Part shown: positions 4,380 to 44,012 of the stretch, one piece after another | Numbering within the stretch: position 1 is the stretch's first letter | Layout of the letters: every line of letters begins with the position of its first letter | DNA from: Nitrosomonas eutropha | Lineage (GTDB): Bacteria > Pseudomonadota > Gammaproteobacteria > Burkholderiales > Nitrosomonadaceae | Assembly (NCBI RefSeq): GCF_900116685.1 | Contig: NZ_FPBL01000008.1 | Span: 1 to 64,000, forward strand | Length of the DNA: 64,000 nt | Direction: 5' to 3' | The notes under the pieces: model-generated | What the model saw: only the letters and a program-made list of their open reading frames with translations | Databases searched by the model: none | Told to the model about the DNA's origin: nothing | Translations under genes and position numbers: made by a program

Positions 4380-6971
4380 TTAAAGATTGCGTTCCACCCA
4401 GCCCGTCACACTTGTCAGGGCTTGTGGCAGCTTGTCTGGCAGCGTGCCGCCGGCCTGTGCCATATCCGCACGTCCGCCACCTTTCCCACCCACCTGTTGC
4501 GCAACAAAGTTGATCAGGTCACCTGCTTTGAGCTTTGCTGTCAGATCATCGGTCACACCGGCAATAAGCACTACTTTATCGTCTTCGATGGTACCCAGCA
4601 CGACAACACACGATTTCAATCGACTCTTGAAATTATCCAGTGTTTCACGCAGTGTTCTGATGTTCACATTTTCCAGCACTGCCGCCAACACTCGTATTCC
4701 CTTGATTTCCTGCGCCTGCTCAATCAGGGAAGAACTTTGCATGCCAGCAAGCTTCGATCGCAAAACTGCGATTTCCTTCTCTACTTGCCTGACATGATCC
4801 AGCACCTGAGATAACTTCAGAGCAGCTTCCTGTGGTGCTGCCTTGAGCACATCGGAAACCTGTTGCAACTGTTGTTCTTGTTGCTGTATGTAAGCTAACG
4901 CAGCCTCGCCCGTCAATGCTTCAATCCGGCGAATACCTGCTGCCACACCAGATTCAGCAACAATCCGGAAGAAACCAATGTCGCCACTGTGTTGCACATG
5001 AGTACCACCACATAGCTCGGTTGAAAAATCACCCATTGATACAACACGTACCGTATCACTGTATTTTTCACCGAATAATGCCATGGCACCTTGCTTGACG
5101 GCCTCATCATAGGCCATCAGTTGTGTCGCTACTTCATGATTCTTGCGGATTTGCATATTGACGAGATTTTCAATCTGACGAATCTCGTTTGCCTGCATAG
5201 CGCTATTATGGGAAAAATCGAAGCGTAATCTGTCAGCATCAACCAGTGATCCTTTCTGCGTGACATGATTACCCAATATCTGGCGTAAAGCAGCATGCAG
5301 CAAATGTGTCGCGGAATGATTGTAGGCAGTGTTGATTCGAGCAACTGGATTAACCCTGGCGATCACCCGATCACCTGTCACCAGCCGACCACTGCTCAGC
5401 ATTCCAGTGTGGCCGAATACCTTGGCCTGGATTTTCTGAGTATCTCTTACGGTAAAAGTGCCGCCACCTGACAAAAGCTCTCCGCTGTCGCCGGCTTGGC
5501 CACCTGATTCCGCATAAAAAGGAGTTTGATCCAGCACAACCACAGCTTCTTCACCGGCCTCTATGAAATCCACACGGCTGCCTTCCTTATACAGCACCAA
5601 AATATGCGCTTCATGCTGCAATGTTTCATAGCCGTGAAACTTGGTTGGCAATCCGACATATTCAAGACTCGTTTGCATAGTGAATTTGCCGCTGGCACGT
5701 GCGCGATCCCGTTGTTGCGCCATACACACCTCAAATCCGGCCAGATCAATCCTGACCTCTCGTTCACGAGCAATATCCGCAGTCAGATCAACCGGAAAAC
5801 CAAAGGTATCGTACAGACGAAAAACAACATCGCCCGAAAGCATATTGCCTTCCTGAGCTAATGCGGCTTCCAGCACTCCCATACCATTCTCCAGTGTTTC
5901 AGCAAAACGTTCCTCTTCCTGCCTGATAACACCAGCCACATGCTTCTTGGCAGCCATCAATTCTGGATAGGCCTGCCCCATGACATCAACCAGATCATCC
6001 ACCAGCAAATGAAAAAAAGGCTGTTTCTGCCCGAGCCGGTATCCATGCCGAATGGCGCGACGCAGGATACGCCGCAACACATAGCCTCGTCCTTCATTGC
6101 CTGGAATCACATCATCCGTAATCAGGAAAGCACAGGCACGGATATGATCAGCGATAACCTTGAGCGAGTTGTTTGACAGATCCTGTTCACCGGTCACTCT
6201 GGCGGCAGCTTCAATCAAACAGCGAAACAGGTCGATTTTATAATTGCTGTGAACCTGTTGCATAACAGCCGCAATACGCTCCAAGCCCATGCCGGTATCT
6301 ACTGATGGCTTGGGCAGCGGATGCAGTTCGCCACTGGCATCGCGGTTATATTGCATGAATACCAGATTCCAGATTTCGACATAACGATCACCATCCGCAT
6401 CCTCCGATCCGGGCGGGCCGCCCGCCACTTCCGGGCCATGATCATAAAAAATTTCGGAACAGGGGCCACAAGGCCCTGTATCTCCCATTTGCCAGAAATT
6501 ATCTGATGTTGCAATACGCACCAGCCGGGAAGGAGCAATCTTCACCTCATTCAGCCAGATATCTGCTGCTTCATCATCCTCCGCATAGACAGTTGCCCAT
6601 AGCTTATCCCTGGGAATATTTAGCGGACCGGTCAGAAACTCCCAGGCAAACAAAATAGCATTACGCTTAAAATAATCTCCAAAGCTGAAATTACCGAGCA
6701 TTTCAAAAAAAGTATGATGCCGTGCGGTATAACCTACATTTTCCAGATCATTATGCTTGCCTCCTGCCCGCACACAACGCTGGGCACTGGCGGCACGAAC
6801 GTAAGGGCGTTTATCCTGACCAAGAAACACATCCTTGAATTGCACCATACCCGCATTGGTAAACAGCAAGGTGGGATCATTCCCTGGCACCAGCGGGCTG
6901 GATGGCACGACGACATGCCCGTGTGTCTCAAAAAAATCAAGAAATTTCTGCCTGATTTCACTACTTTTCAT
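4380..6971 (-). CDS. alaS: Alanyl-tRNA synthetase
   Basis: Attaches alanine to tRNA(Ala) and removes mischarged Ser or Gly. The class II catalytic core is at the N-terminus ([47 protein letters not shown]). The editing domain has [11 protein letters not shown] and the zinc-binding [10 protein letters not shown], and the C-terminal DHHA1-like glycine-rich end ([15 protein letters not shown]) is complete. I chose ATG 6971 (863 aa). The frame can be extended to a TTG at 6992, but that abuts the recX stop and adds non-homologous residues. The gene follows recX closely in the common recA-recX-alaS order. Confidence 0.97.
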
Positions 6972-13080: not shown

Positions 13081-13289
13081 CGTATATCCTGCAAAAAAAT
13101 CCATGCAAAAATAAAACTCTCTACTTATCAGCCAACATATCCAGAATCCTGGACTGATAATCTACAATAGCAACTCTATTCCACATTTTAACCATCGTAC
13201 CCATACCTTATCCTCACTCGCACAAGGTTAAATAATTTTCAAACTAATTCTGTTGTCGTATCTGTTTATGAAAACTGACCAGCTCTGAA

Positions 13290-13350
13290 GTTATACGACA
13301 TCACATACAAGATTATTGGACAAAATGTCTTATATATTACGTTATACGAA
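13290..13350. other. Left boundary of the integron cassette array (possible attI remnant)
   Basis: GTTATACGA occurs twice as a direct repeat, at 13290-13298 and 13341-13349. The second copy (GTTATACGAA) is the exact reverse complement of TTCGTATAAC at 13931-13940, the R'' end of the first cassette, so recombination into this site at 13341/13342 is implied. The 13081-13340 stretch holds no gene I can recognise and no integrase. It may contain a worn attI or a lost cassette's attC. Confidence 0.5.
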
Positions 13351-14258: not shown

Positions 14259-14316
14259 ACCTAACCCGGCGGTCAAGCCGAACGCCTTCGGCGTCGGCTT
14301 ACCTTGCACGTTATAC
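14259..14316 (+). other. attC recombination site (cassette 2 / cassette 3)
   Basis: R'' core ACCTAAC (14259-14265) and R' core GTTATAC (14310-14316) flank a strong imperfect palindrome: CAAGCCGAACGCC pairs with GGCGTCGGCTT around a short loop, with an extrahelical base. This is the layout of an integron attC (59-base element). R' begins the restriction-modification cassette. Confidence 0.85.
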
Positions 14317-14341
14317 GCATAAGCTCGCCCCTTCATAGCGG

Positions 14342-14378
14342 TTGCCAAATTGCAGCATTTTGTATACTATGAGTCACA
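14342..14378 (+). promoter_or_regulatory. Candidate methyltransferase promoter with controller-type operator
   Basis: TTGCCA (14342) and TATACT (14363) could form -35 and -10 boxes with a 15-base spacer. Right after lies ATGAGTCACA (14369-14378), a 10-mer that also occurs upstream of the controller gene at 16515-16524. A shared motif at both promoters of a type II system suggests binding by the controller protein. This is inference only. Confidence 0.4.
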
Positions 14379-14401
14379 CACAAAGCTGTACTGGAAGTAA
14401 A

Positions 14402-15346
14402 ATGAAGTTTCTTGAAGTTAATAAAATCCATCAAGGCCGATCAGAAATACTAATGAAACAGATTGAACCAGAATCTGTAGCTCTTAGCTTTTGGTCTCCG
14501 CCCTACTTTGTTGGCAAGGAATACGAAAAGGATGAAACCTTTGATTCTTGGCAGGCTATGCTTCGCCAAGTTATACACCATCATTCAAAGGCACTCAAAC
14601 CAGGCGGGTTCCTAGTAATAAATATTGGTGACATTCGTTGCTTCAAAGACGAGAGCATTCCACGCTTCCAAGCAATGAACATCTCTATGCAAAAATCAAA
14701 AATTACCAGAGAAATGGTGCTTGAAGCAAAAGCACAATTTCCTGAATTTAGCCGGTATCAACTAGCAGAACATCTTGGTTGTAGCGAACAAACAATTGAT
14801 AGAAGGCTAAACGGAAATAATATTCGGGGTGGAAAATATGAAATACAGACAAGAGTAAATCTTGTGGGTGGGCCACTCCAAACATACGGACAAGAATGTG
14901 GTCTTTATTTGTATGATCACAGAATCTGGGTTAAAGACCCAGCATGGGCAAATTGCAAGTGGACTTCAAACTCGCTTAAATCAGTTGATGAATATGAAGA
15001 TCTTTACGTTTTTTGGAAACCAGGGCAGCAAACCATAGATAGAAAAAAATTAGAACCACAAGAATGGAAGGATTGGGGGTCGAGAGCTATATGGTTTGTT
15101 AAAAGTGTGCGCGCAAACGATGACCATGAAGCTAAATTTCCACTGGAGCTTGCGTCAAGAGTTATAAGGCTATACACAGATAAAGATGATGTTGTGCTAG
15201 ATCCTTTTATGGGATCTGGCACAACAAGCATAGCTTGTATTCGTCACGGAAGGAAATTTATTGGAATTGAAAAAGAGGCTAAATATGTAGCGCTGGCACA
15301 AGAAAATATAAAAAAGGAGATGAGCCAACTTAAGCTAAATATTTAA
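14402..15346 (+). CDS. Cassette 3: type II DNA methyltransferase (predicted N4-cytosine, BglI-like system)
   Basis: A 314-residue beta-class amino-methyltransferase. SPPY (residues 32-35) is the catalytic motif IV of N4-cytosine and some N6-adenine enzymes and comes first; the AdoMet motif DPFMGSGTT (267-275) comes last, which defines the beta order. Between them lies an apparent helix-turn-helix (FSRYQLAEHLGCSEQTIDRR, about 116-135). ATG 14402 begins MKFLEVNKIHQGRSEIL, a typical start for this class; a TTG at 14342 would add 20 residues. Its TAA overlaps the stop of the convergent endonuclease gene. It would protect host DNA from that endonuclease. Base specificity is inferred only from SPPY. 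Confidence 0.88.
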   Translation: MKFLEVNKIHQGRSEILMKQIEPESVALSFWSPPYFVGKEYEKDETFDSWQAMLRQVIHHHSKALKPGGFLVINIGDIRCFKDESIPRFQAMNISMQKSKITREMVLEAKAQFPEFSRYQLAEHLGCSEQTIDRRLNGNNIRGGKYEIQTRVNLVGGPLQTYGQECGLYLYDHRIWVKDPAWANCKWTSNSLKSVDEYEDLYVFWKPGQQTIDRKKLEPQEWKDWGSRAIWFVKSVRANDDHEAKFPLELASRVIRLYTDKDDVVLDPFMGSGTTSIACIRHGRKFIGIEKEAKYVALAQENIKKEMSQLKLNI

Positions 15347-16245
15347 GGGAACGGCACTTGAATGGTCTGCACTCTCCATGGTGCAATATTTTTTAAGAGT
15401 TCAAAACTGACACGAGCTCGTAATTTTCTTGGGTCTTTGGATTTATCATCTTTTCCTGGAAATAATAAACCGTTATACGCGCCAAGATAATTCGGCTGCT
15501 GTGTTAACAAAAGTCCATTCGGAATGCAGGCAATATCAATTCTTTCCAATGGCTGCCCATCATTTCTAGCGCCTACAACATTTGGTTGCAACATTCGATA
15601 CACGGGTTTTAAAGCAATCATCACAAGCGGGGCAATCGTGCCATCTGAAAGAACGAAAACCGGCGGGAGGCTTGCATGAAAATCATGTGATGCCCGCGCC
15701 CCAGTTGCTTGTAATATGGTATTTCTGACCCCATCCACGGGATTTATCCAAACACCATCGCCTGAGACTTGGTTGTGACTCATGACTGTGTGATGTTGAT
15801 CATCTCTTGGGCCTACGCTTTTGATATCCACGAAGAACCATACTGAATTCGTAAATCCACCTGTTGCGGTCGCAATCGCATCGTCAGTGAGTACAAATCG
15901 CTGATCTGATCCCGTTGGTAATCCCGTGTCTCTAACACGGAATACCGAATCTAATAATCTTGGCAGTTTTGAACCGATTGCGTGCTCGCCAACCTCAATC
16001 CAAGGATACTGGTCTTTAATTGGCTGGCGCCCCCTATCTTCAGGTGGATAGTTCTCCCAAAAAGGGTAGAGATAAGATGCTTCATTGTAATCTTGTTTGA
16101 TTTCAACAATATTTGCAGTAATTATCGAAACAAGGTAGTTTGTCAAAAACTTCTCAAGCTCAATCAAAGAAGACGGGTTGGCTATAAAATGGTTTCTCGC
16201 TGAGTTATAGATATTGAATTGATTTTGTCGATGAATATTAATCAT
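15343..16245 (-). CDS. Cassette 3: BglI-like type II restriction endonuclease
   Basis: A 300-residue protein that matches my memory of BglI over much of its length: DYNEASYLYPFWENYPPEDR, PWIEVGEHAIGSKLPRL, GLPTGSDQRFVLT, FVDIKSVGPRDD, NQVSGDG and VLSDGTIAPLV. The catalytic residues fit: Asp114 (in TGSD) and Asp140-Ile-Lys142, the same 25-residue gap as BglI Asp116 / Asp142-Ile-Lys144. The predicted target is therefore GCC-N5-GGC, cut within the spacer. The gene overlaps the end of the controller gene by 8 bases (ATGATTAA), so the two are translationally coupled, and its stop overlaps that of the methyltransferase. Confidence 0.9.
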   Translation of the reverse strand: MINIHRQNQFNIYNSARNHFIANPSSLIELEKFLTNYLVSIITANIVEIKQDYNEASYLYPFWENYPPEDRGRQPIKDQYPWIEVGEHAIGSKLPRLLDSVFRVRDTGLPTGSDQRFVLTDDAIATATGGFTNSVWFFVDIKSVGPRDDQHHTVMSHNQVSGDGVWINPVDGVRNTILQATGARASHDFHASLPPVFVLSDGTIAPLVMIALKPVYRMLQPNVVGARNDGQPLERIDIACIPNGLLLTQQPNYLGAYNGLLFPGKDDKSKDPRKLRARVSFELLKNIAPWRVQTIQVPFP

Positions 16246-16471
16246 AAAAGCTAGCTTTCACCTTGAGGTCTGCAAATAATTCTTGAATATCAACATCCAA
16301 AGCCACTGCAACTTGCTGTACGATTTCAATCGTAGGATTTCTGACTCCGCGCTCGATTCCGCTTATGTATGTGCGGTGAAGTCCTGACTCATCAGAAAGT
16401 CGGTCTTGTGACCAACCTTTTTTTTCACGGGCTAGTCGTACATTTTGGCCAAAAAGAAGTTGTATGCTCAT
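16238..16471 (-). CDS. Cassette 3: Xre-type controller (C) protein of the R-M system
   Basis: A 77-residue helix-turn-helix protein. The HTH reads GWSQDRLSDESGLHRTYISG followed by IERGVRNPTIEIVQQVAVAL, the standard Xre/Cro pattern of restriction-modification controller proteins. It sits directly upstream of the endonuclease and overlaps it by 8 bases, the C-R operon arrangement. Such proteins delay endonuclease expression until methylation is complete, by first activating and later repressing their own promoter. A palindrome about 33 bases upstream of its start is a natural binding site. Confidence 0.9.
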   Translation of the reverse strand: MSIQLLFGQNVRLAREKKGWSQDRLSDESGLHRTYISGIERGVRNPTIEIVQQVAVALDVDIQELFADLKVKASFYD

Positions 16472-16503
16472 ATGTCTGCATAATGGCGGTGCGTTACTTA
16501 TTG

Positions 16504-16524
16504 GTCTATAGACGATGAGTCACA
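16504..16524 (-). promoter_or_regulatory. Candidate C-box operator of the controller gene
   Basis: GTCTATAGAC (16504-16513) is a perfect 10-bp palindrome, flanked by ACT to the left and AGT to the right at nearly equal distance, and lies 33 bases upstream of the controller start. The adjacent ATGAGTCACA (16515-16524) is repeated before the methyltransferase. Position and symmetry fit a C-box. Confidence 0.5.
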
Positions 16525-16535
16525 TTAAAGAATAC

Positions 16536-16616
16536 GTATAACAAATCGCTCAACACGGACGGGCAAAAGCGGCACTTCGCTCTGCTTTTGCTCGCCGGTT
16601 AGCTCAAACGTTAGGC
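16536..16616 (+). other. attC site of the restriction-modification cassette
   Basis: R'' GTATAAC (16536-16542) is complementary to GTTATAC that opens this cassette at 14310. R' GTTAGGC (16610-16616) opens the next one. Between them GGGCAAAAGC pairs with GCTTTTGCTC around a central loop. This defines a 2.3-kb cassette (14311-16610). Confidence 0.85.
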
Positions 16617-17144: not shown

Positions 17145-17462
17145 ATGGCCTGGATATACCTGATCCTCGCTGGACTCTTTGAGATTGGCTGGCCCATCGG
17201 ACTGAAGATGGCGCAGGTGCCGGAAACCCGATGGAGTGGTGTTGGCATTGCGGTCGCGTTTATGGCCGTGAGTGGCTTTCTGCTATGGCTGGCTCAGCGG
17301 CACATTCCCATCGGTACTGCCTACGCTGTTTGGACGGGCATCGGTGCGGCCGGCACCTTCCTCGTGGGCGTTCTTTACTACGGAGATCCAACATCAGTTG
17401 CGCGGTACTTTGGCGTGGCGCTCATTGTTGCCGGGGTCATCACGCTCAAGCTCGCGCACTGA
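17145..17462 (+). CDS. gdx: Cassette 5: SMR-family exporter of the Gdx/SugE type
   Basis: A 105-residue inner-membrane protein with four hydrophobic helices. It has the SMR catalytic Glu in AGLFEIGWPIGLKMAQ (residue 13) and the helix-3 motif IPIGTAYAVWTGIGAAGTFL. The Gly/Trp pattern after the Glu fits the Gdx (SugE) branch, which exports guanidinium or small guanidinyl and quaternary ammonium ions with proton exchange. A GGAGAT site precedes ATG 17145. SMR genes are frequent integron cargo. The gene is GC-rich and sits between two attC sites. Substrate is inferred from family only. Confidence 0.88.
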   Translation: MAWIYLILAGLFEIGWPIGLKMAQVPETRWSGVGIAVAFMAVSGFLLWLAQRHIPIGTAYAVWTGIGAAGTFLVGVLYYGDPTSVARYFGVALIVAGVITLKLAH

Positions 17463-17470
17463 GGTGTGGG

Positions 17471-17532
17471 CGCTAACAATTCATTCAAGCCGAAGCCGCT
17501 CTTCGCGGCGCGGCTTAATTCAGGCGTTGGGC
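17471..17532 (+). other. attC site (cassette 5 / cassette 6)
   Basis: R'' CGCTAAC (17471-17477) and R' GTTGGGC (17526-17532) enclose AATTCATTCAAGCCGAAGCCGC and its near-inverse GCGGCGCGGCTTAATTCAGGC. The arms are nearly identical to those of the sites at 18364 and 19155. Confidence 0.9.
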
Positions 17533-17540
17533 GCCCAAGG

Positions 17541-17942
17541 ATGACCGTGCAAATAGACAAAATCATCGCGCAGTGTTCGGCTGAACAACCAACGGCTGAA
17601 TCTCTAGTAAGAGACTTGGGTGTGTACTCCCATGAGGAGTTCTGCATATCGTTCTGCGCGAGAGTTGCATCCGAGTACGTGGCAGGCCGTCTTTCATTTG
17701 AGGCCGCAGATGCGGCGGTGAACTGGCTTCACTATTTCTGCTATGTAGATGCAGAGCGGGGTATACCGGATTTTTCTACGGCAGTTCATGCGGCATTTGA
17801 CCAAGGCGAGTACGCTCACGCTGGAGACCCACCAGACACCGATCCCGTAGAGAAATACACTCGTCCTCTACTGGCGCAAGTGGCTACTGACTATGGCAGT
17901 CTGTGTGCGCCCAACAATTCGCTGCGGGCGCGACGGCCCTGA
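17541..17942 (+). CDS. Cassette 6: hypothetical protein
   Basis: A 133-residue acidic protein beginning MTVQIDKIIAQCSAEQPTAE at ATG 17541, nine bases inside the cassette. It contains LVRDLGVYSHEEFCISFCAR and FEAADAAVNWLHYFCYVDAE and looks all-helical, with no signal or membrane segment. I do not recognise the family. The frame runs through the R'' core of its own attC and ends 27 bases inside the site (last residues APNNSLRARRP), a common arrangement for cassette genes. Function unknown. Confidence 0.7.
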   Translation: MTVQIDKIIAQCSAEQPTAESLVRDLGVYSHEEFCISFCARVASEYVAGRLSFEAADAAVNWLHYFCYVDAERGIPDFSTAVHAAFDQGEYAHAGDPPDTDPVEKYTRPLLAQVATDYGSLCAPNNSLRARRP

Positions 17943-17972
17943 CGGGCCGCAGCCTGAGCTCAAACGTTAGGC
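17909..17972 (+). other. attC site (cassette 6 / cassette 7)
   Basis: R'' GCCCAAC (17909-17915) is complementary to the GTTGGGC that opens cassette 6. R' GTTAGGC (17966-17972) opens cassette 7. Its last bases, AGCTCAAACGTTAGGCA, are the same as those of the site at 16536-16616. Confidence 0.9.
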
Positions 17973-17982
17973 ATCATTCCGT

Positions 17983-18369
17983 ATGCGCAAGCAATATCAT
18001 TTTCGTGAAAGCAAAGAAGGCTTACTCGCTTGGGATGTTCATCTCTTGATTGACCTTGTGAAGGATATACAGCCTTGTGCTGTGGATCTTTCCGCCATCC
18101 GGGAAGTTGACGAGCCCTATTGGTACAGCACTAAAGATCCACTCCCTACTTGCCGTGATTTGATCGACCATATGCGACTTGTCGAGGCCACAGACCTTAT
18201 CTATCCGATCATTCTTTCACCGGATGGTCGGGTTATGGATGGGATGCATCGTGTGGCCAAGGCCCTGTTGCAGGGTCAGCCCCACATCATGGCCGTACGC
18301 CTTCAGATCATGCCGGAGCCGGATTATATTGGCGTTGATCCGGACGATCTCCCGTATGATGATGCCTAA
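17983..18369 (+). CDS. Cassette 7: ParB/sulfiredoxin-fold protein
   Basis: A 128-residue protein. The centre reads LIYPIILSPDGRVMDGMHRV followed by AKALLQGQPHIMAVRL. The MDGMHR sequence resembles the nucleotide-binding GxHR-type loop of ParB-N/Srx-fold proteins. There is no HTH or partition partner, so it is not a chromosome-partition ParB but a stand-alone fold member of unknown role. The DDLPYDDA tail is acidic. The start at 17983 lies ten bases after the R' core, and the TAA is inside the R'' core of its attC. Function unproven. Confidence 0.75.
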   Translation: MRKQYHFRESKEGLLAWDVHLLIDLVKDIQPCAVDLSAIREVDEPYWYSTKDPLPTCRDLIDHMRLVEATDLIYPIILSPDGRVMDGMHRVAKALLQGQPHIMAVRLQIMPEPDYIGVDPDDLPYDDA

Positions 18370-18423
18370 CAATTCATTCAATCCGACACCGCTTCGCGGC
18401 TCGGTTTAATTCAGGCGTTAGGA
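18364..18423 (+). other. attC site (cassette 7 / cassette 8)
   Basis: R'' GCCTAAC (18364-18370) pairs with the GTTAGGC at the start of cassette 7. R' GTTAGGA (18417-18423) opens cassette 8. The hairpin arms are AATTCATTCAATCCGACACCGC and GCGGCTCGGTTTAATTCAGGC. Confidence 0.92.
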
Positions 18424-18429
18424 GTGCCA

Positions 18430-18774
18430 ATGAATTATAACAACCGAATATTTCGTGGAAAATCTAACTCTGCGAATGGTGAGGTCAGCGAATCAACGCG
18501 TTTTCATTATCATCAAAACGCAGATCAGGTCTGGGCTGAGTACTCTGGCGGCGAAATTGTGAGTGGACACCTTCAAGGGAAGATATTTGCTGATGGTAGT
18601 CTTGAGTTTATGTACCATCACGAAAATATCTACGGTGAGTTGATGGCCGGTAGATGTTGCTCTACACCTCATCAAAGCCCAGATGGAAAGCTAGTTCTCA
18701 AAGAGAGTTGGCAATGGTTTACTGGGGATCAAACAACTGGAGTATCAGAGATTGAAGAAGTTTTTGAATCCTAA
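18430..18774 (+). CDS. Cassette 8: small beta-rich conserved hypothetical protein
   Basis: A 114-residue protein starting MNYNNRIFRGKSNSANGEVS at ATG 18430. It has WAEYSGGEIVSGHLQGKIF and GELMAGRCCSTPHQSPDGK, then LKESWQWFTGDQTTGVSEIE near the end. I recall this small family as widespread in bacteria and often mislabelled N-acetylglutamate synthase; nothing in it resembles an acetyltransferase. The alternating pattern suggests an antiparallel beta structure. The TAA falls within the R'' core (TCCTAAC). Function unknown. Confidence 0.78.
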   Translation: MNYNNRIFRGKSNSANGEVSESTRFHYHQNADQVWAEYSGGEIVSGHLQGKIFADGSLEFMYHHENIYGELMAGRCCSTPHQSPDGKLVLKESWQWFTGDQTTGVSEIEEVFES

Positions 18775-18849
18775 CAAGTACCAGCACAACCGTTCCCTCC
18801 TGTCACTGAACTCGCAACAAGTTGCTCGCCTGTGTGGTGGGCGTTAGGC
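18769..18849 (+). other. attC site (cassette 8 / cassette 9)
   Basis: R'' TCCTAAC (18769-18775) is complementary to GTTAGGA that opens cassette 8, and R' GTTAGGC (18843-18849) opens cassette 9. The internal arms (AAGTACCAGCACAACC and GCCTGTGTGGTGGGC) pair imperfectly, unlike the neighbouring sites. Confidence 0.8.
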
Positions 18850-18854
18850 GCGAC

Positions 18855-19160
18855 ATGACAGATCCTCGCAACTTGAGCCAAGAAGATCGGCGCCTTTTTC
18901 GCATCGTCGGCGAAGTGCTTCACTACGTCTGGGACCCAATCGGCGTAGCTGGCGTCCCACAAGCTCGTGACGAATACGACAATTACGTGCCGCAAGTATT
19001 TAGCCTTCTTCGGGCAGGCTCCGACAAAGCGGTAATATCTGAGTACTTGCAACAGATTTCAGAAGGCCGCATGGGACTCTCCAAACTTACGGATCAAGCC
19101 GATGATGCGGCCTCAGTACTCGTGGACTGGCGTGATCACATCAATGAAAGTCGCGCCTAA
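18855..19160 (+). CDS. Cassette 9: hypothetical protein
   Basis: A 101-residue protein beginning MTDPRNLSQEDRRLFRIVGE, with VLHYVWDPIGVAGVPQARDE and YDNYVPQVFSLLRAGSDKAV. It looks all-helical and soluble. Proteins with the WDPIGV...ARDEYD...Y pattern are recurrent small hypotheticals; I know of no function. ATG 18855 is six bases past the R' core, and the TAA lies in the R'' core at 19155. A longer in-frame start would run back through the attC site and is rejected. Confidence 0.72.
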   Translation: MTDPRNLSQEDRRLFRIVGEVLHYVWDPIGVAGVPQARDEYDNYVPQVFSLLRAGSDKAVISEYLQQISEGRMGLSKLTDQADDAASVLVDWRDHINESRA

Positions 19161-19184
19161 CAATTCATTCAAGCCGAAACCGCT
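19155..19184 (+). other. Truncated (half) attC ending the cassette array
   Basis: R'' GCCTAAC followed by AATTCATTCAAGCCGAAACCGCT repeats the left arm of the sites at 17471 and 18364, then stops being similar. The right arm and R' core are absent, so the array was cut here. Confidence 0.85.
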
Positions 19185-19259
19185 ACGTTCCTGCATCGCC
19201 TGCATGACTTCTTCGTGGGTGTATGACTTGGCATTGAGGTCGTTGGCTTCCCGCAGGGC
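19185..19259 (-). pseudogene. Fragment resembling a type II antitoxin
   Basis: Twenty-five codons on the minus strand read ALREANDLNAKSYTHEEVM followed by QAMQER, preceded by a TAA and running into the half attC. The SYTHEEVMQAM pattern resembles the C-terminal half of RelB-like antitoxins. There is no toxin gene beside it. The match is by eye and short. Confidence 0.4.
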
Positions 19260-40365: not shown

Positions 40366-42642
40366 TCAGAAAGTCTGTCCAAACTGAAACTGGAAACGTT
40401 GCAATTTGTCGCCTGGTTTATCATTAAGTGGCTGGGCAATACTGAACTTTAGTGGCCCCATGGGAGAAATCCAAGTTGCAGCCAATCCGGCAGAATAACG
40501 AAAATCATCAAATCCCAGTCCGGAAAATGAATTAATAATTGTACCGCCATCCGCGAACGCACTCAGGCGAACTGATTTGTCTTCCTTCATAAACGGTACC
40601 GGAAACAATACTTCAACGTTACCGACTATACGCTTGCTGCCTCCCAGAGCCAGATTATTATTGTCACGAGGCCCCAACGTATTGATGTTGTATCCTCGAA
40701 CCGAATTAAAGCCACCTGCAAAAAAATTCTTGAAGAAAGGTAGCGGTTTGCCGGAATATCCATCACCCACTCCCACTTCACCATTCAGCATCAGGGTAAA
40801 CAGCCTGGAGACAGGAAAAAACCATCTCTGCTCATAACTGACTTTGTAGTAATTCAGGTCTCCGAACGGCATACCAAATTCGCCAAATAATCGCTGCATC
40901 AATCCAGAGGTTGTCCAGATCGCACTGTCACGACGATCACGCGCCCAGCTCAAGGTAAGCGGAAGATTATTGGAAGTCTTGCCAAATTGATCGACAAAAT
41001 CCCTGAAACGTTGCGGGCTGTCATTGCGCAGATCAATTTTGGTGTGTTCATAACCCAGCCCCAATGAAACCACGTCATTTTCCGCGACAGGGATACCAAA
41101 GCGAATATTGGCACCAGTCGTATCGGTATTGAACACCCCTACACTGCTCAGAGAGCGGGTATTGATGTCACGTTTAAACGCTTCCAGACCGAGACTGACT
41201 CCATTAATCGTATAGTACGGATTACTGAATGAAGCCGAGATAATCTTGTTAACGCTCCCGGTATTCACCTGCAGACTGAGAAAATTACCCGTTCCCAGAA
41301 TATTGTTCTGGGCAATTGATCCATTCAGAATAATTCCTTCGCGATCGGAATAACCAGCACCAAACATGATTGCCCCGGTCGGCTTCTCAACTACATTGAC
41401 ATTGATATCCACCTGATCCGGTACATCTGCAACTGGAGGGGTTTCGACGTTAACACTGGTGAAAAAATCCAGCCTGTCCACCCGTTGGCGGGAGCGGTTG
41501 ATCTGTTCGGTAGAATGCCAGCCCCCTTCCATCTGCCGGAATTCACGACGTATCACTTCATCCCGGGTACGTTCATTACCGCTGATGTTGATGCGTCTGA
41601 CATAAACCCGGCGCCCTGGGTCAATAAAGAAAGTAAAAGCTGTCTTGCGAGTTTCCTTGTCCAGCTCCGGTGAGGCATTAACATTGGCAAAGGCGTAACC
41701 GTCATTCCCCAGCCTGTCACTGATCAGCTTGATAGATTCAGTCAGCTTTTCGCGGGCAAATACGCCACCTGGCTCCAGTTTAATCAGCTTGCGCAATTCT
41801 TCTTCCGGCACAAGCAGCTCGCCTGCAAGTTTTATATCGGATACCGTATATTGAGGACCTTCCGTTACATTGACTGTAATGTAAATATCTTTCATATCCG
41901 GCGTAATCGAAACTTGCGTAGATTCGATATTGAACTCTAGATATCCCCGATCAAGATAATAGGAACGCAGCGTTTCAAGATCAGCCGATAATTTTTGCTT
42001 TGAATACTGATCGTCCTTCGTAAACCATGTCATAAAACCCGGTGTTTTGAGACTGAACAGACCGGTCAGCTCATCTTCAGGAAAAACATGATTGCCGACA
42101 ATGTTGATTTGCTTGATTCGAGCTGTTTTTCCTTCCTTGATGTCAAAGTTGATGCCGATACGGTTCCGTTCCAGCGGCGTGGTTGTGGTCGTAATTTTGA
42201 CGGCATACTTACCCCGGCTGATGTACTGACGCTTCAATTCCTGCTCAGCTTTTTCAAGTAGCGAACGACTGAAAATACGGGATTCTGACAAGCCTGCCTG
42301 CTTCAGCCCTTCCTTGAGCTTATCCTTGTCAAATTCCTTTGCGCCGTTGATTGTGATTTGCGCGATTGCAGGACGTTCCTGAACCTGCACAATCAGCAGC
42401 TCTCCTTCGGATTTCAGTTTGACATCACTAAAAAAACCGGTTGCATACAGTGCCTTGATCGCTGCACTGGCTTTTTTACTGTCGAGCACATCGCCAACTT
42501 TAACAGGCAGATAACTGAATATTGTTCCGGCTTCGGTACGCTGAATACCTTCTACCCGGATATCCCTAACCACGAATGAATCATTTGCCGCGCAACCTAT
42601 TGAATACAGGAAAAAAAATAACGCATAAAACCTGAATTTCAT
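40366..42642 (-). CDS. bamA: Outer-membrane protein assembly factor BamA
   Basis: The core of the BAM machine that inserts beta-barrel proteins into the outer membrane. A signal peptide ([15 protein letters not shown]) is followed by [20 protein letters not shown], the first of five POTRA repeats, with [20 protein letters not shown] marking POTRA5. The C-terminal barrel contains the lid-lock motif [16 protein letters not shown] and ends in an aromatic residue (FQFQFGQTF), the usual barrel signature. Length 758 is normal. It starts 2 bases after the rseP stop. Confidence 0.97.
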
Positions 42643-42644
42643 GT

Positions 42645-44012
42645 CTATTCAGCAGCCAGACGAAGTAGATCGTTATATATTGCAAACACCATCAACGTAA
42701 TCAGCAAAGCCATACCAATCTGATTACCGACATACATTATTTTTTCAGATAATGGTATTCCCCGCACCACTTCGATCAAGTAATACATCAGGTGCCCGCC
42801 ATCCAGAACTGGAATCGGTAGAAGATTCAACACACCAAGACTGATACTAATCAGAGCCAGGAATCCCAGGTAGGCAGCAAACCCCATTTGAGCCGACTGG
42901 CCAGCATAGTTTGCAATGGTAATCGGCCCGCTGATATTCTTCAGCGAAACATCACCAGTTACCATTTTCCCAAGCATGCGCACGGTAAAATAAGACATTT
43001 CCCAAGTCTTGGTAACCGCTTTAATCAAAGCTGCCATCGGAGGATAGCTGGTTTTCACTAGCAGATTTTCTAGTATCTCATGATGGATTTCAGGCGTAAT
43101 TCCAGCCTTGCCAATTTCAGCATGACCCTCGGATACGGTTTCCGGCTGTAATGACATAACAAGCACCCGGCCATCCCGCATCACCTCAACCGAGAGTGTG
43201 TGCCCGGGATTTGAACGCACCATATCGACAACATCTTCCCAGGTGGAGACTTCCTTTCCATTAATCGCCACAACTCTGTCGCCAGTCTTGAGACCCGCGT
43301 GTTCTGCCGCCCCGCCAGCCATCACCTGATCAATAACCGGAGCAATAATTGGCCGATAAACACTCAAGCCCAGTCGGTTCAGAAAATCGCTTTCAAGATC
43401 TTCTGCGCCAAGACTGCTCAAATCGAGCTTAAGCTGACGAGAAATTCCACTTTCACCTGCAACTGTTATCCTCACATCAGGATTCTTGTCTACTGCATTA
43501 TCCAGCAATAGCAGTCGGGTTTCCTGCCAGGTGGTAATTGCCTGATCGCCGATTCCGGTAATGGTATCTCCGTTTCTGAAGCCTGCTGAAGCCGCAAGTG
43601 TTGCGGGTTCAATTTCTCCCAGGATTGGCTTTACGCCACTGATACCAAGTATAAAAAGTAACCAGTACAACAAAATAGCTAATAAAAAATTGGCCACAGG
43701 GCCTGCAACTACGATAGCGAAACGCTTGGAAACAGGTTGTCGATTAAACGCACGCGGAAGTTCGTCAGCGGAAACTCGCCCTTCCCGTTCATCCAGCATC
43801 TTGACATATCCTCCCAGAGGGATCGCAGCAACCACCCATTCCGTCTGATCACCACCAAGGCGTTTTTTGAACAGGGGCTGACCAAATCCGAGAGAAAAGC
43901 GCAGCACCTTGACTCCACACCAACGAGCGACCAGATAATGACCAAATTCGTGAAAAGTGATCAGCAGACCCAGTGCAATTACGAATGCAAAAATAGTTGA
44001 GAGCAGTGTCAT
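42645..44012 (-). CDS. rseP: Site-2 membrane metalloprotease RseP
   Basis: Inner-membrane zinc protease that cuts within anti-sigma factors and signal-peptide remnants. The first helix has the zinc motif [20 protein letters not shown], two PDZ regions follow ([20 protein letters not shown] and [20 protein letters not shown]), and the last zinc ligand lies in [20 protein letters not shown] chose ATG 44012 (455 aa, [20 protein letters not shown]); a TTG five codons upstream is less likely. It lies between dxr and bamA in the envelope cluster. Confidence 0.96.

Follow-up and report, generated by a model that had tools for sequence, protein, structure and literature searches.

Can a whole restriction-modification (R-M) system, with its nuclease, its protecting methyltransferase and its own regulator, be carried as a single integron cassette? 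The question is raised by positions 14,311 to 16,610 of a 64,000-nucleotide stretch of Nitrosomonas eutropha DNA (contig NZ_FPBL01000008.1, positions 1 to 64,000), which was analysed at its full length and is called the window here. The host carries an ammonia monooxygenase gene. By the usual description, an integron cassette is a single gene that has no promoter and relies on that of the integron. The locus is interpreted as a type II R-M system of the BglI family, complete and self-contained, packed as one integron cassette and presumably self-timed in its operation. A probability of roughly 0.85 is given to this reading.

Genes and cassette borders

An earlier note on this DNA had proposed a methyltransferase facing a controller-endonuclease operon within one 2.3-kb cassette. 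All open reading frames and both borders of this arrangement were found. The following features carry it (coordinates of the window).

14402..15346, plus strand: methyltransferase M, 314 aa, N4-cytosine type, beta class
15343..16245, minus strand: BglI-family restriction endonuclease R, 300 aa
16238..16471, minus strand: controller protein C, 77 aa, helix-turn-helix
15343..15346: TTAA common to the stop codons of M and R
14259..14316, plus strand: attC site of the preceding cassette, left border of the R-M cassette
16536..16616, plus strand: attC site of the R-M cassette
14311..16610, plus strand: R-M gene cassette, 2,300 bp, between the G/TT crossover points of both attC sites (slash, point of crossover)

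R matches the family model PF14562 (Endonuc_BglI) over residues 9-295 (E 1.9e-120, 401.9 bits) and, over residues 1-296, the protein chain of the BglI crystal structure (PDB 1dmu; E 2.8e-78), and is therefore not a chance reading frame. M belongs to PF01555 (E 4.4e-43) and contains SPPY (motif IV), followed by DPFMGSGTT (motif I). SPPY before DPFxGSGTT is the motif order expected of a beta-class N4-cytosine methyltransferase. The mechanically listed reading frame of M starts with TTG at 14342; the conserved start is the ATG at 14402. C matches PF01381 (HTH_3, E 1.6e-17) and the control protein model of PADLOC (E 5.8e-19). Its gene lies upstream of R in one operon, which spans 16471-15343 on the minus strand and is convergent with M.

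The borders were located with an attC covariance model (R1), built from seven attC sites on other contigs (C12, C17) of the same genome. It replaced a home-made attC scanner that was judged too crude. The left border scored 40.6 bits (E 3e-7 in 140 kb) and the attC site of the R-M cassette 46.4 bits (E 1.2e-8 in 140 kb). With a model independent of this contig, 14311-16610 was thus confirmed as one cassette, at the same coordinates. Both transcription units, M and C-R, start close to an end of the cassette and are directed toward its interior, so that an integron promoter may not be needed for their expression. Transcripts reading through from cassettes upstream would enter M in the sense direction and would favour protection.

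The nearest relatives of R occur in the cyanobacteria Microcystis aeruginosa and M. wesenbergii, with identities of 75% for R, 80% for M and 79% for C and with the same convergent order of C-R and M. They were found in a scan of one genome per species across 84,980 species, which returned nine relatives of R. The ratio of nonsynonymous to synonymous divergence (dN/dS) between window and Microcystis is about 0.07 for R and 0.06 for M, with dS near saturation, and indicates strong constraint on both genes. The dense packing stressed in the earlier note was present as described, both in the 8-base overlap of C and R (16238-16245) and in the TTAA common to the convergent genes. The two overlaps differ in origin. 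C and R are 12 nt apart in Microcystis, so the 8-nt overlap is particular to the window copy. The TTAA overlap recurs in the Microcystis copies (loci L009 and L010); the shared stop codons are inherited, and the tight packing that they represent was not made by the integron.

A derelict integron

The cassette lies in a short array whose beginning is marked by two features.

13140..13284 (limits approximate), minus strand: 5' fossil of the integrase gene intI
13290..13347 (about 58 bp), plus strand: attI site, GTTATAC followed by GTTATAC 51 bp later

A segment of about 140 bp before attI can be aligned with the beginning of intI in other genomes of the genus, for example at loci L058 and L076. 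The same attI sequence adjoins an intact intI at both of these loci and 5' pieces of intI at six more, and the window copy shares 91% identity with that on contig C17. No functional intI stands beside attI in the window, where the gene is reduced to the fossil; an intact IntI of the host is encoded on another contig (C12:352703-353647). The array reads as a derelict integron, which has kept attI and lost intI. A former candidate, the leader repeat 13162-13344 as a mobile dispersed repeat, was dropped, since it proved to be the intI fossil plus attI. The leader, mostly just its attI-like part, was matched in 33 of 81 genomes of the genus, often several times per genome; some of these matches adjoin an intact or broken intI. 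In G001, the closest relative searched, the same fossil sequence is found behind hppA; the stretch read there has no cassettes, and the locus is too altered to read an empty-site junction for the window copy.

Further attC sites follow at 17471-17532, 17909-17972 and 18364-18423, giving five together with the R-M borders (E 1e-4 to 1e-13 in 140 kb). Two weak ones lie at 19155-19226, which looks truncated (E 0.8, model R1), and at 18769-18849, which was seen with filters off only. Another cassette of the array carries a small multidrug resistance (SMR) efflux gene (17145-17462; NCBIfam NF000280, above cut-off). A second derelict integron was observed at L046 1513-2634 (C17, about 42012-43133), with the same leader, at least two attC sites and no intI found beside it.

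The state of the array bears on what the cassette is for. It might be mainly a selfish addiction module, whose loss leads to killing by residual endonuclease, so that cassette and neighbours are kept and any anti-phage role is secondary. R-M systems have addiction properties in common with toxin-antitoxin modules, for cassettes of which a stabilising role in super-integrons has been proposed (PMC2654758), and the genes here are intact and constrained. The array to be stabilised, on the other hand, has no intI and about seven attC sites, several of them weak or truncated; the Microcystis cassette stands alone, with no array to stabilise, and the conserved specificity residues of R (see below) are explained no better by addiction than by defence. 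As the principal role, addiction is tentative and on the unlikely side, and the two roles are not exclusive. The suggestion that a toxic-antidote pair would stabilise this array found no support in an array that is short, decayed and without an integrase of its own. Such stabilisation is possible, and is weakened by the decay and by the lone Microcystis copy. The most likely function is a mobile, self-timed type II restriction defence.

The cassette in Microcystis

In phylogenetic trees the window copy is grouped with Microcystis for both R (support 98/97) and M (support 92/91). R and M homologues are adjacent in all ten related loci. DNA homology between window and Microcystis extends from 14361 to 16527, includes both promoter regions and ends just before attC. 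Immediately behind its C promoter, the Microcystis copy has an attC site in the expected orientation (L009 2983-3069; 18.9 bits, E 1.1e-3 in 2.8 kb). This site shows visible homology to an independent attC of Microcystis, at locus L082. The cassette is 2,324 bp long in Microcystis and 2,300 bp in the window. The distance from the M start to the left border is 99 bp versus 91 bp, that from attC to the C start 73 bp versus 65 bp, and the cassette borders fall within 8-14 bp of the same gene-relative positions.

Five Microcystis genomes without the system (L092, L095, L099, L100, L101) preserve an empty site, with flanks continuous across G/TTAAGA. The empty site reads AATTTAC..G/TTAAGAGTCC, the filled one ...ACCGG/TTATAC (cassette) ...AACCG/TTAAGACC. 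Continuity at the predicted point identifies the Microcystis R-M unit as a lone cassette in a secondary site. An IntI above the family cut-off is encoded in 4 of 12 Microcystis genomes, and its gene is open in three; of the R-M carriers, G836 has an open gene and G835 one with a stop codon. Further attC sites, some of them paired, and an open IntI gene were observed in M. wesenbergii (L082, L084, L086, L088, L091, L122), and Microcystis therefore has, or recently had, integrons. A search of the open-access literature found no report of integrons in this genus. In the M. wesenbergii copy L010, an insertion of about 95 bp with inverted ends (TATAGCGGTTTTCA...TGAAAACCGCTATA) lies at about 5600-5700, between the C promoter and attC, and breaks the R'' box of the attC site. 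It may lock the cassette in place.

Alternatively, the R-M block could have moved by homologous or illegitimate recombination and become a cassette independently in each lineage, the matching borders being coincidental. The attC arms of both cassettes have little alignable sequence, the DNA homology stops before attC, and other relatives of the system show no attC: none that is convincing was found near the Bacteroidota, Verrucomicrobiota, Clostridia and viral copies, where one match with E 0.92 was ignored. Coincidence would have to account for both borders falling so close to the same gene-relative positions, and for the two attC sites agreeing in orientation and in their position behind the C promoter. 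Independent origins are judged unlikely.

The BglI-type R family is rare. PF14562 was found in this host alone, both in an order sample and in a phylum sample of 399 genomes each, and the plasmid and phage collections contained no relative of R. On a viral contig (IMGVR_UViG_3300036766_000363; L018 4854-6216), an intact relative of M (69%) lies beside the last 68 residues of a BglI-like endonuclease, and no controller gene was found there. This methylase has perhaps been retained for protection against restriction. Scanning the viral contigs with M alone gave no matches. The nearest plasmid relative of M (57%) is located on pGSUB1 of Geoalkalibacter subterraneus (L081), where it adjoins a protein with a nuclease-related domain and has no annotated BglI-like gene beside it; the locus may represent a related R-M system with another endonuclease.

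Regulation

The transcription units are preceded by the following putative control elements.

14342..14370, plus strand: M promoter TTGCCA-17-TACTAT (or -10 TATACT at 14363-14368), consensus scan 9/12
14363..14378, minus strand: C-box over the -10 region of the M promoter (O_M-like), GTATACTATGAGTCACA
16493..16524, minus strand: double C-box operator (O_L and O_R) of the C-R operon, TGTGACTCATCGTCTATAGACCAATAAGTAAC

The operator TGTGACTCATCGTCTATAGACCAATAAGTAAC upstream of C corresponds to TGTGACTTATnGTCTATAGACTAAAAAGTAAC in both Microcystis copies and is partially present in two Clostridia-type copies. Its core pattern had 0 matches in 100 shuffled windows. The C-box GTATACTATGAGTCACA over the -10 region of M is conserved in Microcystis (L009, L010) and in part in the viral contig L018. 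The regulation looks similar to that of Esp1396I, by analogy of layout. There, too, the C/R operon is convergent with M, and the C protein acts as a repressor at the transcription start of M (PMC4041747).

These elements also bear on another reading, in which the cassette is real but silent, carried along in a dead array with genes that are not expressed or are inactive in this host. The array is derelict, without intI, and the promoter matches are weak. Against this stand three open frames, the preserved active-site and base-contact residues, and operators at both promoter regions in common with Microcystis. An active endonuclease without methylation would be lethal; it follows from an intact R that either M is expressed or both genes are silent. 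A silent passenger is improbable.

The endonuclease and its predicted site

R aligns with BglI at 138 identities in 292 columns. The Asp-25-Asp-x-Lys arrangement of BglI, named in the earlier note, is kept in R as D114, 25 residues and D140-x-K142, and the proposed alignment of the 300-aa protein extends to full-length homology, catalytic region included. The catalytic residues E87, D114, D140 and K142 correspond to E87, D116, D142 and K144 of BglI, and the base-contact residues D148, K265, D267, R276 and R278 to D150, K266, D268, R277 and R279, the roles being those described for BglI (PMC548270). All are also conserved in the nine homologues. GCCN5GGC is strongly predicted as the recognition site of R, and the prediction is strengthened because all five checked base-contact residues are conserved. 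M probably modifies GCCNNNNNGGC as N4-methylcytosine. The window contains 22 GCCN5GGC sites, none of them inside the cassette.

A BglI-like fold with another recognition sequence, e.g. an SfiI-like or relaxed site, could be argued from the identity of just 47% of aligned columns, from a match to the SfiI family model PF11487 (E 5.8e-77, 259.4 bits) and from the replacement of BglI K73 by R73 in R and all nine other homologues, but is less probable still, since the BglI model match is far stronger (401.9 bits) and the five conserved base contacts include the equivalent of D150, which is absent from SfiI and whose retention favours the BglI site.

Proposed mechanism and significance

An integron integrase would excise or capture the 2.3-kb circle via attC. 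In a naive cell, M would be made at once from its own promoter and modify GCCNNNNNGGC, while C would accumulate slowly and activate its own C-R operon via O_L/O_R. C would also lower the activity of the M promoter via the C-box over the -10 region. The endonuclease would appear only once the host DNA is protected, and the mature system would cut unmodified incoming DNA at GCCNNNN^NGGC. Such a cassette could work in a decayed array, as in the window, or as a lone insertion, as in Microcystis.

Several points weigh against this interpretation. The promoter consensus scan yielded sites no more frequently than in shuffled sequence, and support for the M promoter rests on conservation of the -10 region for this reason. 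That C binds the predicted operators and switches the C-R and M promoters is deduced from sequence alone. The attC site of the Microcystis R-M cassette has a modest score; it was missed by cmsearch with default filters and found with filters off. Moreover, the attC arms are too diverged to prove common descent of the two sites. The wider proposal is that a single autoregulated C-R-M cassette was passed between Pseudomonadota and Cyanobacteriota by integron recombination, and that the delay imposed by the C protein is what allows a lethal nuclease to be acquired safely in a single recombination event, whether at attI, at attC or at chance GTT sites. The chances of this being right are put at about even.

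The earlier note had called a cassette with its own promoters and regulator unusual. The regulator is present, but the claim has to be softened with regard to promoters: toxin-antitoxin and some resistance cassettes bear their own (PMC11014356). Type II restriction systems in integrons have already been reported, according to the review PMC12409362, citing Darracq 2025, and R-M systems also occur in Xanthomonas integrons (PMC12444791). The same review describes type II restriction genes in integrons as tending to be reduced in size. As far as the searches go, what is new is a full-length, C-regulated BglI-type cassette, its presence as a cassette in two phyla and the empty-site proof in one of them.

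The cross-phylum cassette is the valuable part of the finding. The matching unit occurs in a derelict array in one phylum and as a lone secondary-site insertion, with an empty target in sister genomes, in the other, which suggests that integrons can carry a whole R-M system between distant bacteria. If this is true, they carry complete, ready-to-run R-M systems beyond small promoterless genes. The present cassette combines a toxic nuclease with the antidote to it and with a presumed timing circuit, and it is not reduced in size. Two questions become accessible to experiment: does timing by the C protein allow R-M systems to move as cassettes, and do integrases place defence systems outside arrays? 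The persistence of attI and of the intI fossil further supports the view of integrase-less attC arrays as decayed integrons.

Comparison with known systems

R agrees with BglI in full-length homology, in length (300 versus 299 aa) and in all catalytic and listed base-contact residues. It differs in sharing 47% identity over aligned columns, in forming an operon with a controller gene and in its location on an integron cassette. Esp1396I has in common with the locus a C/R operon convergent with M, a double operator upstream of C and a C-box at the M promoter (PMC4041747). Its enzymes and recognition site are different, and it is plasmid-borne (pEsp1396I) instead of being carried on a cassette; C-box binding in the window copy is a prediction from its sequence.

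The array resembles the CALIN class of IntegronFinder (PMC9024848) as an attC array without a nearby intI. It differs in that attI and the intI fossil are still visible, and the window array is therefore directly shown to be a decayed integron. Restriction and other defence cassettes known from chromosomal and from mobile integrons (Darracq 2025 and Kieffer 2025, covered by the review PMC12409362; Xanthomonas, PMC12444791) likewise present an anti-phage system as a cassette. Whereas the type II restriction genes of integrons are size-reduced according to that review, the window encodes a full-length R. The C-R-M unit is carried entire, together with promoter regions of its own, and has a matching cassette in a second phylum.

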